A program made the translations under genes and the position numbers. From Edaphobacter sp. 12200R-103 (GTDB taxonomy: Bacteria; Acidobacteriota; Terriglobia; Terriglobales; Acidobacteriaceae), in the NCBI RefSeq assembly GCF_010093025.1, contig NZ_CP048114.1, forward strand, positions 1,302,001 to 1,366,000: a stretch of DNA of 64,000 bases, written 5' to 3'. Position 1 is the stretch's first letter; every line of letters begins with the position of its first letter. The notes beneath the pieces were generated by a model. It was given only the letters and a program-made list of their open reading frames with translations. It made no database searches and had not been told where the DNA came from. Shown one piece after another: positions 44,929-51,120 of the stretch.

Positions 44929-45540
44929 CTATCGTGCCGCCGCACGATGAGGCACCCAGACGTCCCGGATATCAAAGGAGCGCATACCGGCGCGTGAAGC
45001 AGCCTCCAGACCCTCATTCGAGTCCTCGAACACCACTACCCGCTCCGGAGCCACGCGCATACGGTGCGCCGCCTCCAGATAGACATCAGGAGCTGGCTTG
45101 GCACGCTTCACCTCTCCAGCAGTCACAATGGTGTAGAAAAGCGGACGCAGTCGAGTGGCAATCAGTGTCGCTTCCACGTTCTTTCTTACACCGTTCGAGG
45201 CGACAGCCATAGGCACAACGCCGAACCAGTGGCGGGCCACGTCGGTAACGACCCGAATCTCTTCAATGAGGTGAAGATTCGCCAGGAATACCTCGTTCAC
45301 CGCGCGATAGAAGTCTTCGCGCACAAAGGACTCGACCTTGAAATCCGCCTCGTAGGCGTCCAGAAGATCGTCAGGTCCCAACCCGTGGCGGGAGCTGTAC
45401 CACTCCGGATTCATCGTCAGGCCCAGCGGAGCCAGCGCCTGCTGCATGGAGTACAGATGTGCCGGCGCACTGTCGACGAGAGTACCGTCGCAGTCAAAGA
45501 CCAGGGCGTCGAAGCTTCCCCTCTCCAGTTCGAAGGCCAT
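44929..45540 (-). CDS. HAD-IA phosphatase, beta-phosphoglucomutase-like
   Basis: A 203-residue HAD enzyme. Motif I is VFDCDGTLVDSAPAH with both Asp present, the cap is helical (about 30-95), motif II is MAVASNG, motif III Lys is in KRAKPAPDVY, and motif IV is VVFEDSNEGLEAA. This is the pattern of sugar-phosphate phosphatases such as YqaB/YniC or beta-phosphoglucomutase. Followed by a sugar-acid cluster on the same strand, it may clear sugar-phosphate by-products. Substrate not proven. Confidence 0.87.
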   Translation of the reverse strand: MAFELERGSFDALVFDCDGTLVDSAPAHLYSMQQALAPLGLTMNPEWYSSRHGLGPDDLLDAYEADFKVESFVREDFYRAVNEVFLANLHLIEEIRVVTDVARHWFGVVPMAVASNGVRKNVEATLIATRLRPLFYTIVTAGEVKRAKPAPDVYLEAAHRMRVAPERVVVFEDSNEGLEAASRAGMRSFDIRDVWVPHRAAAR

Positions 45541-45604: not shown

Positions 45605-46381
45605 TTATTGGTTGACGCCGCTGGCAAGGAAGCCGCCGTCTACAACCAGGATCTCTCCGGTCACGAAGCTTGCAGCGTCACTAGCCAGGAAGATCGCAGA
45701 TCCTATCAGTTCCTCGGTCTTGCCGAACCGGCCCATCGGCGTGCGCATCAACAGCTCTTTGCCGCGGTCGCTCTCGTCCAGCAGCTTCTGGTTGAGGGCT
45801 GTCCGGAAGACACCAGGGGCAATCGCATTGACCGTGACGCCACGGGAGCTCCACTCGACCGCCAGTGATTTCGTCAGGGCTCCGACCGCAGCCTTGCTGG
45901 CGGCATACGCAGTTACCTCTTTCAGAGAGACGTACGTGTTGAGCGACGCGATATTGATGATGCGCCCGTAACCTCGTTCCAGCATATGACGCCCGAAGAT
46001 CTGGCAGGCCCGCAGCGTGCCCGTCACATTCGTGTCCATAATGTCGTTCCATGTCTCTTCGGAGACGGTCAGCGTGGGCTCGCGCTTGATCTTGCCTGCC
46101 GAATTGATCAGGATGTCGACCTTGCCAAACTCCTTAATCGTTCCTTCGAACAACGCTTCCAGAGAAGTGCGGTCGCCTACATCGGAGGTAAGACGAAGCG
46201 TGCGCCGTCCCTTCGATTCGATCGCCTGCGCGGCCTCCTCGACCTGTTCGGCTCGGCGCGAGGTCGCAACAACATCGGCTCCAGATTCCGCCAGGCCAAT
46301 CGCCATCGCCAGGCCAATGCCCGAAGTACCGCCCACTACCACCGCCGTCTTTCCGGTCAGATCAAACAATGAGTGCGCCAT
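45605..46381 (-). CDS. SDR oxidoreductase, possible fructuronate reductase / gluconate 5-dehydrogenase
   Basis: A 258-residue SDR. VVVGGTSGIGLAMAIGLAESGADVVATSRRAEQ binds the cofactor. INSAGKIKREP is where NNAG would be, INIASLNTY holds the Ser, YAASKAAVGAL the Tyr-Lys, and the end is LVVDGGFLASGVNQ. The Arg-Arg after strand 2 favours NADP(H). The fold resembles IdnO/KduD and the SDR-type fructuronate reductase UxuB of Bacillus. Its gene lies 28 bases from gluconokinase and close to tagaturonate epimerase. The gene order makes a sugar-acid reductase likely; the substrate is inferred. Confidence 0.87.
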   Translation of the reverse strand: MAHSLFDLTGKTAVVVGGTSGIGLAMAIGLAESGADVVATSRRAEQVEEAAQAIESKGRRTLRLTSDVGDRTSLEALFEGTIKEFGKVDILINSAGKIKREPTLTVSEETWNDIMDTNVTGTLRACQIFGRHMLERGYGRIINIASLNTYVSLKEVTAYAASKAAVGALTKSLAVEWSSRGVTVNAIAPGVFRTALNQKLLDESDRGKELLMRTPMGRFGKTEELIGSAIFLASDAASFVTGEILVVDGGFLASGVNQ

Positions 46382-46409
46382 GAATTCCGTCCCTCTCCTG
46401 TCTATTTCT

Positions 46410-46919
46410 TTACTGATTCGATTTTGCAGCCGTTGAAAGCTTCTGGAGGATTCTATCTACAACCTCTTCCGGGCTCCGATCATTCACGACCCGCACCGCA
46501 TCTTTGGGGGGCTCAAGCGTATTGATCTGGCTCTCCAGTAGCTTGGGGTTCATAAATTCATGATGACGCGCTGCCAGGCGCTCTCCGATCAGTTCGGCCG
46601 AACCGTCCAGCCAGACAAAGGTAACCGTTCCCTCGGGCATGCCTTGCTCTAAAGTATCGCGATACTTCTGCTTCAGCGCCGAGCAGGCAAGAACGCCCTT
46701 CTTTCCATCCTGATACCAGCCCTGCATCAGGCGGTTCAGTGTCTCGAGCCAGGGCTGCCGGTCTTGATCGTTCAGAGGATGCCCCGCTGCCATCTTTTCC
46801 TTATTAGCAGCGGGATGATAATCGTCGGCATCGGCAAAGGTTGCGTCCGTACGCTCGGCAAGAAGCTCGCCGATGGTCGTCTTCCCTGACCCGCTGACAC
46901 CCATCAGTACAACAATCAT
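46410..46919 (-). CDS. gntK: Gluconokinase
   Basis: A 169-residue P-loop kinase phosphorylating gluconate to 6-phosphogluconate. Walker A is GVSGSGKTTIGELLA (8-15). DADDYHPAANKEKMAAGHPLNDQDRQPWLETLN is the typical GntK substrate-binding block, ACSALKQKYRDTL contains the Arg-rich lid, and FVWLDGSAELIGERLAARHHEFM follows. The length fits E. coli GntK (175). It precedes the SDR by 28 bases and follows the tagaturonate epimerase by 66. Confidence 0.95.
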   Translation of the reverse strand: MIVVLMGVSGSGKTTIGELLAERTDATFADADDYHPAANKEKMAAGHPLNDQDRQPWLETLNRLMQGWYQDGKKGVLACSALKQKYRDTLEQGMPEGTVTFVWLDGSAELIGERLAARHHEFMNPKLLESQINTLEPPKDAVRVVNDRSPEEVVDRILQKLSTAAKSNQ

Positions 46920-46985
46920 CCGTTCCAGATATCCTTTCCGGGACCAGTCTCCGAGAATACCGCCTCAGGCAAAATTCAGTCTTCC

Positions 46986-48236
46986 TTATCCCAGAAAGAC
47001 AGGACGGATGTGCCGATCAAACAGGTTGGTCGTCACGTTTCTGGCAACGCTCTCTTCGTTGGCTTCGAGCGCCTTCAGATAACGGTCACCCATCTTTGCC
47101 GCTACCTTGAAGCCGACGTGAAGCAGCTGGCGAAGGCTGGCATTGTAGGCCGGGTTGCTCTGATCATGGCGTAGAGCGGAGACGAACTGCTCACTCGTCC
47201 AGCCATCCACTTCCTCGGGGGTGGGCAGCTTCGCCGGATCGATGTCGATGACACTCGCGTAGGGCACGCAAAGCTCCTCGCGATGACCATATGCCTCGCG
47301 ATAGACCTCTTTCGCAATCTCGAGTCCCTGTCCCCCTGCCTCCGCCAGGCCGATGATCTCCTCAAGCCAGGTCGTACCGGCGGTCTTCAGGTGCACACCG
47401 GCGCCGGTGCTCACAACTGCATCGTGAATCGACTTGTAGATTGAGAACTTGTCCGATCCGGAGTGGACGCTCAGCTTCAGATTCGCGGGAAGGCCGTACT
47501 TCTGGACCGCAAATGCAATCGCGGCGATGTCTTCGCGGAACTCGCGCGTGAACTGTGCGACGTCGCCCACATAGTCCACGCCCTTATTGAAGCGCCCCGT
47601 AAACTTCGGAGCAATCGTCTGGATGGGAATCTTCTCATCGGCGATCGCTGCCAGAATAATCAGCAGCTCAACCGGCGTCTGGGGCGAGTCTGTCTCGTCC
47701 ATGGAGACCTCAGGGACGAAGTTGCCGTCACCCTTCTTTTCCACCAGGTAGCGATAGATCCTGCCTGCATCCTGCACTGCCGCCAGAAACTTATTCGCGA
47801 CCTTCGTAACAAACGCTTCGTCGGTATGGAAGGGCTCCGCAATTCCAGGAATGGAAACAGTGCCGATCAGCTCCGGATGGCGGCCCACAAAGGCCTTTAC
47901 ATCGGCTGCATCCGCCGGTTTACCAATCATCTCGGCGACGTCCAGAGTGAAGAAGTCGCACGGCGCAAGAAAACGGTCGACCGTGGTCAGATTGATGTGG
48001 TCGGCGTCGAGATAGTAGGGCGCAGTCCAGCCAAGCTCCCTGACGGCAGCATCCGCGGCCTTCCGGGTCTGTGCAGGATCGCTGCCGATGATGTTGTGCT
48101 CACGGTTGGACTTATTCCAGACGGGCACGACCTCCAGACCGGCCTCCTTCGCCTTAATGCATGCAGCAAGCTGCGCTTTGGCCTGGTGGGCGAATCGGTC
48201 GCCTACCCCTATGGAAAACCTCGGAAGCTGTGTCAT
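46986..48236 (-). CDS. uxaE: Tagaturonate epimerase
   Basis: A 416-residue protein of the UxaE family, which interconverts D-tagaturonate and D-fructuronate in hexuronate breakdown. Recognised blocks: FSIGVGDRFAHQAKAQLAACIKA, VPVWNKSNREHNIIGSDP, YYLDADHINLTTVDRFLAPCDFFTLDVAE, FTGRFNKGVDYVGDVAQF and LSVHSGSDKFSIYKSIHDA. The His and Asp of DADH and the His of SVHSGSDK are plausible metal ligands. ATG 48236 (MTQLPRFSIGVG) is chosen; an earlier start at 48275 adds 13 residues. The neighbours gntK, SDR and LarA-like gene form the sugar-acid cluster. Confidence 0.9.
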   Translation of the reverse strand: MTQLPRFSIGVGDRFAHQAKAQLAACIKAKEAGLEVVPVWNKSNREHNIIGSDPAQTRKAADAAVRELGWTAPYYLDADHINLTTVDRFLAPCDFFTLDVAEMIGKPADAADVKAFVGRHPELIGTVSIPGIAEPFHTDEAFVTKVANKFLAAVQDAGRIYRYLVEKKGDGNFVPEVSMDETDSPQTPVELLIILAAIADEKIPIQTIAPKFTGRFNKGVDYVGDVAQFTREFREDIAAIAFAVQKYGLPANLKLSVHSGSDKFSIYKSIHDAVVSTGAGVHLKTAGTTWLEEIIGLAEAGGQGLEIAKEVYREAYGHREELCVPYASVIDIDPAKLPTPEEVDGWTSEQFVSALRHDQSNPAYNASLRQLLHVGFKVAAKMGDRYLKALEANEESVARNVTTNLFDRHIRPVFLG

Positions 48237-48445
48237 CAACTCATCACCCAATCGACGGAATAGTGGTCCAACCAATCATATCCCCATCCTCTCCTCACAG
48301 GCAACCGGCACAGAAGAAAGCTACCTCCGGGCCTCTCACGGAAGATGATTCTGCATCTAACTGCGCCAGAGCCGGGCTCTTTCATGCCGTTTGCTCTTCT
48401 CGACCCAAACAAATACAGAGCTAATTTGCCGAAAGGGATCTATCC

Positions 48446-48955
48446 ATGACTCTGATTCGTTCGTGTCTTCTGGCCGTCGCAGCGGTATGCGCAACCTCGT
48501 CACTGGCGGCCCATGCCGATACCTTTAACTTCGCCGTCAGTGGAAGCGCCGGCGGCTTCAGTGGATCGGGAATTCTTGAAACGACCCCGAATGGATCGGG
48601 GCAATACCTCATCACAGGAATTTCAGCCACCGGAGTGACCGGCATCATCGCTCCGGGCGGTTTTAACGGCAACGACAACCTGCTCTTTCCCACAAACGCC
48701 CAGACCCTGGACCCGAATGGGTTCAGCTTCAGCGCAGCGAATGGCCCTGACAGTTTCGACGTGAATGTCTATAACGACGGCACGGGATACTTCGCGTTCT
48801 TCCGCGACGAAGATAACTTCACCGATACACTCCCCATCACCTTCGACGTTACTCCAGCCGCTTCTCCTGTTCCTGAGCCCGGCACATTGCTTCTGCTCGG
48901 CACCGGGATCCTCGGGGTTGCCGGAAGCCTGCGGAGAAAGGCCTTTACACACTGA
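48446..48955 (+). CDS. Small exported protein with PEP-CTERM sorting signal
   Basis: A 169-residue protein with a signal peptide (SCLLAVAAVCATSSLAAHA, cleavage about 24), then a low-complexity Gly/Asn/Ser/Thr-rich domain. The C-terminus has the canonical tripartite tag: VPEPGTLLLLGTGILGVAGSLRRK. The tag is read by an exosortase (EpsH-type), which usually goes with exopolysaccharide export; none is in the window. It interrupts the sugar-acid cluster on the opposite strand. Its function is unknown; the tag is beyond doubt. Confidence 0.85.
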   Translation: MTLIRSCLLAVAAVCATSSLAAHADTFNFAVSGSAGGFSGSGILETTPNGSGQYLITGISATGVTGIIAPGGFNGNDNLLFPTNAQTLDPNGFSFSAANGPDSFDVNVYNDGTGYFAFFRDEDNFTDTLPITFDVTPAASPVPEPGTLLLLGTGILGVAGSLRRKAFTH

Positions 48956-48975
48956 TCCCAGTGATTCCCTATAAC

Positions 48976-49000
48976 AAAAGGGAGGCTAAGCCTCCCTTTT
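48976..49000. terminator. Bidirectional Rho-independent terminator
   Basis: AAAAGGGAGGC / GCCTCCCTTTT stem with a 3-base loop between the PEP-CTERM gene (+) and the LarA-like gene (-); T or A tracts on both sides. Confidence 0.9.
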
Positions 49001-49026
49001 GTGCTGCATGAAGCTCATGAGACGGC

Positions 49027-50304
49027 TCATCCTTGCCCAAAGCGGCCCTTGTAGGCCCACAGGCCCAGGCCGGGATTCGAGATGTAGAAGATCTCCTCGC
49101 CGTCCACGACGTTCCAGCCATCCTTCAGGACATCGGGATTATATTTTGCGATCATCTGGGCCAGATCGCCGTACTCAAAGTGCACACTTTCGATCTCTTC
49201 CTTCGTAAGGTGCCCCGGACAGTACCGGATCGTGAAACGCCCTTCGGATGAACCATGAATCAGATGCGCGGCCGCACTCAGATTACCGGCGAGCACGGGA
49301 TCCTCCTTCACCAGCGCCAGCGTGCGCGGCGTTCCGCAGTAACCGTATCGTCGGATCAGTGTATCGATCGCCCCATCTTCACCGAACTCTTGCACTCCGG
49401 GAGCGAGCACGATCAGCTCAGCACCGTCTGCCAGCGCCATCCGGGTGCGATAGACGCTCTTGTTTCCCAGCCATGTGCTGCGAAATTCATGGGGGTCCAG
49501 AAAGACGACGGCCTTCTTAATCTCCCGGTCCAACATCTGGAAGTTGACCTTGAGCGCAAGAGCCGAAGCCAGTTCGAAACACTCCACATCGTCGCCGATG
49601 TACAGGCCTCGAACCACCAGCTTGCCCTCTGCATTCTTCCCAACCACCGTCTGTACGTAGACGACCGGAAGGTTGCGGGCAAAGTTGTCACTGGCATAGT
49701 TCAGAACCCGGCGAACCGGGGTGTCGGCACGCCCCATCATCCGCTCCATGCCATAGACAGCGCCCAGAAAATGCGAACGGTGGATTCCGATGGAGCCTCC
49801 CGTTCCGACGAAGATGTTTTTGTTGTAGTTGGCCATGCCAACCACCTCGTGAGGTACAACCTGTCCGATCGACAGAATTAGATCGTGGCCACCATCGCGG
49901 AGCAGCTTGTTGACCTGCGCCGGCCAGGAATAGTCCACCTTGCCTTCGGAAACCTCGTAGAGAAAGGAGCCGGGAACCTCGCCCAGCGTGACCACGTCAT
50001 TCCGCCAGTCGTGGACGCGGAACAGATGCCTGGGCGTATCGCCATACATGGTGGCGATCTCAGAGTCTGTCATCGCCTTATGCGTTCCCAGCGCGGGAAG
50101 TACATCGGTCAGACGATCTCCATAGTATTTCCAGGCAAGCTCGGTGAGCACGCCGGCCTGCGAATGAAAGCGCGTAAAGTCCGGAGGAACTGCTAGGACT
50201 CTGCTCCTGGCTCCAATGGCATCCAATGCGGAGAAGAGGGCGGTGCGTAGATCGTCGGCCGACATCTCTGTGGTCGGACTTCCTGCGGAGAAATAAAGGC
50301 TCAT
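49027..50304 (-). CDS. LarA-like nickel-pincer racemase/epimerase
   Basis: A 425-residue member of the lactate racemase (LarA, DUF2088) family. VPPDFTRFHS holds the conserved DxTR, with Asp42 and Arg45. GTHKAMT has His75. Then His152, Lys162 (NYNKNIF) and His178 (GIHRSH) have the spacing 10 and 16, identical to His174, Lys184 and His200 of Lactobacillus LarA, where Lys holds the nickel pincer. So the active site is complete. D-gluconate 2-epimerases are known in this superfamily. No larB/C/E cofactor genes are in the window. Same strand as uxaE-gntK, separated by the PEP-CTERM gene. Confidence 0.88.
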   Translation of the reverse strand: MSLYFSAGSPTTEMSADDLRTALFSALDAIGARSRVLAVPPDFTRFHSQAGVLTELAWKYYGDRLTDVLPALGTHKAMTDSEIATMYGDTPRHLFRVHDWRNDVVTLGEVPGSFLYEVSEGKVDYSWPAQVNKLLRDGGHDLILSIGQVVPHEVVGMANYNKNIFVGTGGSIGIHRSHFLGAVYGMERMMGRADTPVRRVLNYASDNFARNLPVVYVQTVVGKNAEGKLVVRGLYIGDDVECFELASALALKVNFQMLDREIKKAVVFLDPHEFRSTWLGNKSVYRTRMALADGAELIVLAPGVQEFGEDGAIDTLIRRYGYCGTPRTLALVKEDPVLAGNLSAAAHLIHGSSEGRFTIRYCPGHLTKEEIESVHFEYGDLAQMIAKYNPDVLKDGWNVVDGEEIFYISNPGLGLWAYKGRFGQG

Positions 50305-50373: not shown

Positions 50374-51120
50374 ATGATGAATGCAAAAGACCTGCAACTT
50401 ACCGTTCCCGATGGCACGGTCGATGCCGTCCTGTTTACCCCTGAAGATGGCAGGCCTCTTCCGGGCGTACTCTTCATCCCGGACATCGGCAGTATCCGCG
50501 ACACGATGCGCCAGATGGCGCTGCGTCTGGCAGGCGAGGGATACACCATCCTGATGCCCAACCCCTTCTACCGGACCAGCAGGCCCCCGGTCTTCTCTTT
50601 CCCTAGAAAGTCAGGCGATCCAGCTACAGTGAAACGCATTCAAGAGCTGGCTGCTCCGCTCACCCCGGAGGCGCTCGAAAGGGATCTGACCGTCTACCTC
50701 GAGACTCTGGCCTCGCAGCCCACCACCGCCAAAGGCAAAGTCGGCACAGTCGGTTTCTGTATCGGGGGCGGAATCGCGCTACGCGCCGCCGCCATCCGAC
50801 CGGATCGGGTGGGCGCCGCAGCCTCTTTTCATGGTGGCGGCCTGTATTCGGGCAGGGACAATCCCCGCAGTCCTCACCAAGTGCTGCCCGGTGTCAGGGC
50901 TTCGCTCTACTTTGGACACGCTACTGACGACAAGAGCATGGATGCCGACGCCATCGCTCACTTTGAGAGAGCGCTGCAGACATGGGGAGGACACTTCGAA
51001 AGCGAGACATACAATGCTCACCACGGCTGGACCGTGCCGGACAATCCCGCCTATCAGCAGCCGGAAGCCGAACGAGCCTGGGGGAAGCTGACGACGCTGT
51101 TCCGCGAGACTCTTTCCTAA
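50374..51120 (+). CDS. Dienelactone hydrolase-family protein, cytoplasmic
   Basis: A 248-residue alpha/beta hydrolase without signal peptide. The nucleophile elbow is GFCIGGGIALRA with Cys, Asp is in FGHATDDKSMD, and His is in YNAHHGWTV. The catalytic Cys is shared with dienelactone hydrolases and carboxymethylenebutenolidases. GGGAG lies a few bases before the two ATGs at 50374/50377. It is divergent from the LarA-like gene by 69 bases. A paralogue at 27352 is exported, so the organism keeps at least two such hydrolases; substrate unknown. Confidence 0.87.
   Translation: MMNAKDLQLTVPDGTVDAVLFTPEDGRPLPGVLFIPDIGSIRDTMRQMALRLAGEGYTILMPNPFYRTSRPPVFSFPRKSGDPATVKRIQELAAPLTPEALERDLTVYLETLASQPTTAKGKVGTVGFCIGGGIALRAAAIRPDRVGAAASFHGGGLYSGRDNPRSPHQVLPGVRASLYFGHATDDKSMDADAIAHFERALQTWGGHFESETYNAHHGWTVPDNPAYQQPEAERAWGKLTTLFRETLS

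Follow-up and report, generated by a model that had tools for sequence, protein, structure and literature searches.

Sugar acids from pectin and glucuronoxylan are plant-derived carbon for soil and sediment bacteria, and metabolic reconstructions usually call the route for their use by uxuA. Variants of the canonical uxuA-kdgK-eda isomerase pathway have been described. Thermotoga maritima carries the pectin/galacturonate operon aldH-pelB-gnd-uxaRED-gntEK, for which Rodionova (2012; cited in PMC3750489 and PMC6978723) proposed the gntE route, noting gntE homologues in Acidobacterium and Terriglobus (per PMC6978723). In Lactobacillus suebicus, hexuronates pass through mannonate to 6-phosphogluconate without 2-keto-3-deoxygluconate (KDG), on a way to ribulose 5-phosphate that is redox-neutral (PMC6978723). 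Here we compare with these systems a group of genes in a 64,000-nucleotide stretch of the genome of Edaphobacter sp. 12200R-103 (G000), C1:1302001-1366000, which we call the window: they encode a short-chain dehydrogenase/reductase (SDR), a gluconokinase (GntK), a short homologue of tagaturonate-fructuronate 3-epimerase (UxaE) and a LarA-superfamily protein. We consider it highly probable that these genes encode the lower steps of a hexuronate pathway that does without uxuA.

In the proposed pathway, UxaC would convert D-glucuronate to D-fructuronate and D-galacturonate to D-tagaturonate, and the short UxaE (46986-48275, minus strand; 429 amino acids (aa) from a TTG start; PF16257) would turn tagaturonate into fructuronate. 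The SDR (45605-46381, minus strand; an open reading frame (ORF) of 258 aa with PF13561/PF00106), predicted from its context to be a mannonate-forming fructuronate reductase, would supply D-mannonate. The LarA-type enzyme (49027-50304, minus strand; 425 aa; NF052594, PF09861), loaded with the nickel-pincer nucleotide from LarB, LarE and LarC, would invert C2 of this compound to give D-gluconate. The GntK/IdnK-type gluconokinase (46410-46919, minus strand; 169 aa; TIGR01313) would then form 6-phosphogluconate, and 6-phosphogluconate dehydrogenase would decarboxylate it to ribulose 5-phosphate. We infer every one of these reactions in this strain from gene families, residue conservation, predicted fold, neighbourhoods and co-occurrence, the SDR step most of all. 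The initial annotation of the window had proposed the sequence from UxaE through a fructuronate-reducing SDR, a LarA-type epimerase and GntK to 6-phosphogluconate; it is supported by gene clusters of the genus and of as many as six phyla besides, and further backed by UxaC, larE/larC/larB and 6-phosphogluconate dehydrogenase beside the epimerase, and by GntK-epimerase fusions.

The pathway is known in kind, and the case here is a variant, not a new route. It would share with T. maritima a tagaturonate epimerase, a fructuronate reductase, a gluconate 2-epimerase, a gluconokinase and 6-phosphogluconate dehydrogenase. In T. maritima, however, the route is a parallel branch, as the same regulator also controls a kdgAK-uxuBA operon, whereas 20 of 21 genomes of the genus Edaphobacter lack a strong uxuA match. 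In addition, the epimerase belongs to LarA group 18 here and to group 20 there, UxaE here lacks the N-terminal part, the SDR comes from an unrelated branch, and a KdgK-like kinase replaces GntK in some genomes. In L. suebicus, where no genes are assigned to the route (PMC6978723), phosphorylation precedes epimerisation, unlike in our proposal. The GntE D-gluconate 2-epimerases (LarAH19, LarAH20 and LarAH15; PMC7583248, PMC11770544) have the same nickel-pincer catalytic residues and the same set of E, V, A and H as the enzyme in the window. UxaC and the mannonate intermediate are common to the canonical pathway as well, but the proposed route would need no mannonate dehydratase, KDG or 2-keto-3-deoxy-6-phosphogluconate (KDPG).

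The open-access literature that we searched held no paper on group 18 clusters, on the PfkB replacement or on the fusions, which is weak evidence, as subscription papers lay mostly outside the search. We give even chances to a broader proposal: that the uxuA- and KDG-free route with group 18 epimerases serves the genus as its main way of using hexuronates and is also widespread, as an alternative, in as many as six other phyla, in which a KdgK-like PfkB protein would replace GntK as gluconokinase or mannonate kinase and some lineages would do without a recognisable LarC. If this is true, genomes scored as incapable of finishing hexuronate catabolism may use a nickel-dependent, redox-neutral route to pentose phosphates, hexuronate use would depend on nickel, and both LarA group 18 and a kinase clade resembling KDG kinase would gain a function.

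The predicted epimerases and the nickel-pincer cofactor

The LarA-like protein reaches 652.9 bits with NF052594, the model for the nickel-dependent putative hexonate epimerase of LarA group 18 (cut-off 500), and 31.3 bits with PF09861 (cut-off 23.3). The equivalents of LarA D72, R75, H108, H174, K184, H200 and K298, read from an alignment with GntE and from the residue list of PMC7583248, are invariant in 53 of 53 sequences. The same is true of E153, V154, A346 and H347, which align with LarA F175, F176, W358 and T359; E, V, A and H at these four positions make up the specificity signature of GntE (PMC11770544). The GntE of T. maritima forms gluconate from mannonate in vitro, and group 18, which is placed beside the active groups 19 and 20 and is absent from the enzyme activity table of the same paper, has been hypothesised to act on a hexonate (PMC7583248). 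The predicted structure of the window protein is closest to GntE with its published mannonate-to-gluconate activity, and structural alignments with 4nar give 23-24% identity. On these features of its sequence, the protein is predicted to be a nickel-pincer D-mannonate/D-gluconate 2-epimerase. A second, divergent group 18 epimerase is found in the same genome (L049 9144-10403; C1:3396170-3397387), and likewise in G159 (L102); both second copies have intact catalytic residues and no pathway seeds nearby.

The genome also encodes LarB (NF033503, 293.2 bits), LarC (TIGR00299, 216.1 bits; NF052512, 144 bits) and LarE (TIGR00268, 306.8 bits), all over their cut-offs, with larB, larE and larC at C1:1589-1592 kb. 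LarC went undetected in six genomes of one other genus of the family, g8 (G107, G127, G135, G155, G163 and G167), though a group 18 epimerase is present: they gave no PF01969 match, nor any hit below E 0.01 in a protein search with the LarC of G000. All but one of the six g8 loci have larE and larB after the epimerase (e.g. L098 10791-13799). G047 and G078, which have other LarA homologues (g4), were likewise without LarC by PF01969 or the G000 LarC search (E 0.01).

The UxaE homologue scores 168.4 bits with PF16257 (cut-off 27.1) and covers only profile positions 80-472 of 475, the first 79 being missing. An alternative ATG lies 13 codons inside the TTG start, and this ATG, at 48236, is probably the true start. 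In a phmmer comparison with the Cohnella UxaE 6il9 (E 6e-28), the stretches DxDH, DET, KGxDYxGD, HSGSDKFS and KTAGT are common to both proteins. Proteins of ~640 aa near other LarA homologues, in G042, G056, G074, G096 and others, match UxaE in part only (positions 124-284 and ~303-385). UxaC is encoded outside the window, at C1:758122. A GH20-like glycosidase and an amidohydrolase adjoin uxaC in this genome (L050 3654-5780 and 401-1567); the glycosidase, which recurs in 15 of 21 stretches from the genus, points to a polysaccharide as a possible source.

Conserved neighbourhoods and fusions

In relatives, we read 60 stretches, none longer than 20 kb and some of them not around an epimerase. 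Among 21 genomes of the genus, 20 have a cluster that joins the epimerase to the same SDR. Its kinase is GntK in 18 genomes and a PfkB protein, at the position of GntK, in two; UxaC is included in 16, LarB and LarC in 15, LarE in 14 and UxaE in 13. The exception is G191, where the epimerase stands alone and the SDR, GntK, UxaE, larC and larB are found elsewhere (L083, L108). Chance as the source of the neighbourhood is ruled out by epimerase, SDR and kinase occurring together in 20 of the 21. Seven genomes have a UxaC-epimerase-GntK-SDR cluster without UxaE (L056, L057, L059, L060, L062, L063 and L074), and in two of them (G095 and G179) a genome-wide search gave no UxaE match. Glucuronate is the only substrate for which this set is complete, which is what an SDR acting on fructuronate would predict. 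In other genera of the family, UxaC, a major facilitator superfamily (MFS) transporter, the epimerase, UxaE and the SDR lie together in L081, L091, L098, L100 and L101, the last four also with a GntR regulator. In G135 and G155, the epimerase with larE and larB is separate from a UxaC-UxaE-GntK-SDR cluster (L096, L097, L104, L105).

Among 200 Terriglobia genomes, counted irrespective of kinship, the epimerase exceeds its cut-off in 51. The short UxaE is present in 43 of these 51 versus 21 of the other 149, UxaC in 45 versus 23, a divergent UxaC (250-300 bits, PF02614) in 35 versus one, and GntK in 30 versus 17.

A scan of named genomes extended the comparison to other phyla; the best 80 of 574 loci (mean stretch 13.5 kb) comprise 35 from Bacteroidota, 15 each from Acidobacteriota and Planctomycetota, eight from Ignavibacteriota, four from Verrucomicrobiota, one from Spirochaetota and two unassigned. 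In 44 of these best 80, 6-phosphogluconate dehydrogenase (Gnd) is encoded on the same strand at most 3.5 kb from the epimerase, while well under one locus would be expected (an estimate for a single-copy gene in genomes of ~5 Mb). None of the 15 Acidobacteriota loci shows this adjacency, against 44 of the 65 others (27 Bacteroidota, nine Planctomycetota, seven Ignavibacteriota and one Spirochaetota). A PfkB kinase is equally close in 35 of the best 80 and an SDR in 60; UxaC occurs somewhere in the stretch in 29 and UxaE in 23. The Verrucomicrobiota loci gave kinase, SDR and MFS matches only, and the Spirochaetota are represented by a single locus.

Gene fusions bring kinase and epimerase still closer together. 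Plasmid NZ_CP026605.1 of Saccharobesus litoralis (Pseudomonadota) encodes a GntK-epimerase fusion of 589 aa (WP_159084288.1; GntK at residues 3-157, 184.8 bits; epimerase at 171-581, 618.9 bits), and the fusion gene is followed by LarE, LarB, UxaE and gnd, with uxaC further on. Catenovulum adriaticum has a one-base overlap between gntK and the epimerase gene; annotated larC and larB come next, with a LarE over its cut-off between them. By precomputed domains, kinase-type and LarA Pfam domains are combined in 18 of 120 listed fusion homologues (17 besides WP_159084288.1), from sources that include Opitutus and Lentisphaeria. Because of the fusions and the overlapping genes, kinase and epimerase probably share a metabolite, of which gluconate is the simplest reading. 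The NCBI name 'D-mannonate epimerase' already stands on the fusion and on some unfused homologues. A plasmid search returned four records, two of them distant relatives.

Points against the proposed pathway, and rival readings

A number of observations weigh against the pathway we propose. Genomic context is not always a reliable guide to the function of LarA homologues (PMC7583248), and the predicted structure has its lowest confidence at residues 154-156, next to E153 and V154 of the signature. The SDR lies under the curated cut-off of every sugar-acid dehydrogenase model listed, including the D-mannonate oxidoreductase model NF006132 (231.5 bits, cut-off 281), and its clade is separate from the SDRs of other phyla. 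Genes for a KdgK-like kinase and a KDPG aldolase (Eda) exist outside the window in the same genome, and a UxuA-family protein encoded there retains stretches resembling the metal site. Outside the window's family, GntK shows no association with the epimerase (1/17 vs 16/142), and most of those 17 loci, some on short contigs, have no clear pathway neighbour: Gnd was seen in G185 and in G173, the latter having a PfkB kinase too; G149 gave matches to SDR, kinase and MFS; G080, G105, G106 and G109 gave MFS or weak SDR hits and no more; and ten gave none. Among the best 80 of 574 loci, UxuA shares the locus in five, and ten of the 15 Acidobacteriota loci have no pathway seed nearby. Finally, S. litoralis, the carrier of the fusion, did not grow on galacturonate according to PMC7953866.

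The kinase might act first, phosphorylating mannonate so that the LarA-type enzyme would turn 6-phosphomannonate into 6-phosphogluconate, as extract activities of L. suebicus suggest. We regard this order as unlikely. It would suit the KdgK-like kinase that stands in for GntK in two Edaphobacter genomes and the two PfkB clades found with the epimerase, but the kinase in the window is a GntK over the cut-off (TIGR01313, 166.1 bits, cut-off 113.75), GntE, the structurally closest enzyme, uses unphosphorylated mannonate, and the four specificity residues agree with the GntE group. The two genomes, G033 and G123, are the sole ones of the 21 without a GntK match when the best 17 candidates of each were scored. 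The PfkB kinase in their GntK slot is KdgK-like by family and by structure-sequence matches, though it reaches no cut-off among the models listed, and could be a sign of KDG chemistry. In a tree of 48 PfkB kinases, from which hits with <70% cover or <300 aa had been removed, two clades, one of 10 rows and one of 24, consist solely of kinases encoded ~2.1 kb or less from an epimerase, which we infer to be gluconokinases or mannonate kinases; three of the 14 rows of a third, KdgK-type clade are also close to an epimerase (adjacent, 607 bp and 1821 bp). Where the PfkB kinase was not seen, proteins of ~300 aa occur directly upstream of the epimerase in L132 (7105-7995) and L145 (7086-7991). Similar starts are seen in L153, L180, L186 and L201, and both of the two proteins tested gave a weak HAD_2 match.

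The SDR is the least secure step of the proposed pathway. Its best model is KduD (TIGR01832, 251.6 bits, cut-off 338.85), and in a tree built by a quick method without bootstrap, after thirteen near-duplicate loci had been dropped, it groups with acidobacterial sequences in a clade of 23 rows that is separate from the KduD-like rows; for 21 of the 23, an epimerase lies no more than 3.6 kb away. The genome gave no match to PF01232 (classical UxuB/UxaB) and none to NF006132 at E 1e-75 (11 of 67 candidates scored), the latter being lacking also in 21 sampled genus genomes. Because the SDR is the oxidoreductase kept beside the epimerase, and because the genome gave neither of these matches, it is assigned to fructuronate reduction. 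SDRs over the NF006132 cut-off occur in 24 of the 200 Terriglobia genomes, though in no Edaphobacter; by a hand count, 14 of the 24 have this SDR ~1.3 kb or less from a LarA homologue below the group 18 cut-off. In Bacteroidota, Ignavibacteriota and Planctomycetota, the SDRs beside the epimerase exceeded this cut-off in three of three tested (371.7, 371.2 and 380.3 bits).

The pairing of an SDR with GntK is reminiscent of idnO-idnK. The two could thus form an IdnO/IdnK-like module for 5-ketogluconate or idonate, with the LarA-type enzyme acting on another hexonate and uxaE and uxaC as chance neighbours, and the SDR indeed scores about equally with the KduD and gluconate 5-dehydrogenase models. 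We think this very improbable, as UxaC and the short UxaE co-occur strongly with the epimerase, the tested SDRs beside the epimerase in other phyla are D-mannonate oxidoreductases, and Gnd adjacency and the GntK fusion link the product to gluconate.

The initial annotation also held that no uxuA is needed and that the window has none. The genome-wide UxuA search places no match in the window, and the need for uxuA is, as far as tested, not apparent: PF03786 exceeds 300 bits in one of the 21 genus genomes, is weaker in six and has no match in 14, while the epimerase and uxaC are present in all 21. A uxuA-kdgK set co-regulated with uxaE, named at the outset as evidence that would speak against the bypass, did not turn up in the Edaphobacter stretches, each 20 kb or shorter. 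Searching the genome for uxaC, uxuA, kdgK and larBCE recovered uxaC and larBCE, together with kdgK-like and eda genes; for uxuA it gave the UxuA-family protein mentioned above. This protein (C1:2177376-2177930) is over the PF03786 cut-off (128.7 bits, cut-off 23.7) and under both NCBIfam UxuA models (104.9 against 191 and 83.5 against 199.55 bits), and has an apparent twin-arginine translocation (Tat)-type signal, read by eye. The objection that a UxuA elsewhere makes the bypass moot is weakened by these scores, by the signal and by the 14 genomes without PF03786, though it may still hold. In Terriglobia, UxuA exceeds 300 bits in 8 of the 51 epimerase-bearing genomes versus 2 of the other 149. 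The KdgK-like kinase and KDPG aldolase genes lie with a KduD-like SDR (330.6 bits, cut-off 338.85) a few kb from larE-larC-larB (L052 847-10087; C1:1582-1592 kb). That the enzymes serve in reverse, gluconate being epimerised to mannonate and dehydrated by the UxuA-like protein to KDG for KdgK and Eda, is hardly credible: the adjoining KdgK-like and Eda genes and the conserved metal-site stretches would suit it, but not the low scores and seeming Tat-type signal of the UxuA-family protein or the absence of PF03786 matches in 14 of the 21, and the GntK of the cluster would compete for gluconate.

For the exit of the proposed pathway from 6-phosphogluconate, the genome has one gnd match of 448 bits and two short 6-phosphogluconate dehydrogenases over their cut-offs. 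Twelve of 31 Edaphobacter genomes, not all of them complete, lack the long gnd match; that this breaks the route is countered by short enzymes over the cut-off in G131 and G066, the two checked of those 12, as in G000. Edd exceeds its model cut-off in one of the 31, and an Entner-Doudoroff exit looks rare by this model.

Layout and flanking genes

The four genes had been described as lying on one strand in one neighbourhood. All are minus-strand ORFs, with 28 bp between the SDR and gluconokinase genes and 66 bp between gluconokinase and uxaE, but the run is broken by a plus-strand gene for a PEP-CTERM protein (48446-48955; PF07589), outside the pathway, which splits the LarA-like gene, the upstream member, from the other three. 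Since epimerase and uxaE are no more than ~80 bp apart in G040 (L068) and ~220 bp apart in G159 (L069), the PEP-CTERM gene, opposite in strand to the otherwise conserved cluster, looks like a later insertion. A promoter/terminator scan found sites no commoner than in shuffles.

Downstream of the SDR lies a gene for a HAD hydrolase (44929-45540, minus strand; PF13419), a possible member of the cluster that is also found downstream of the SDR in L068, L076, L082 and L123. On the other side, a gene for a dienelactone-hydrolase-family protein (50374-51120, plus strand; PF01738) is a divergent neighbour retained in several relatives, where it adjoins the epimerase (L054, L055, L068, L069, L076 and L082).

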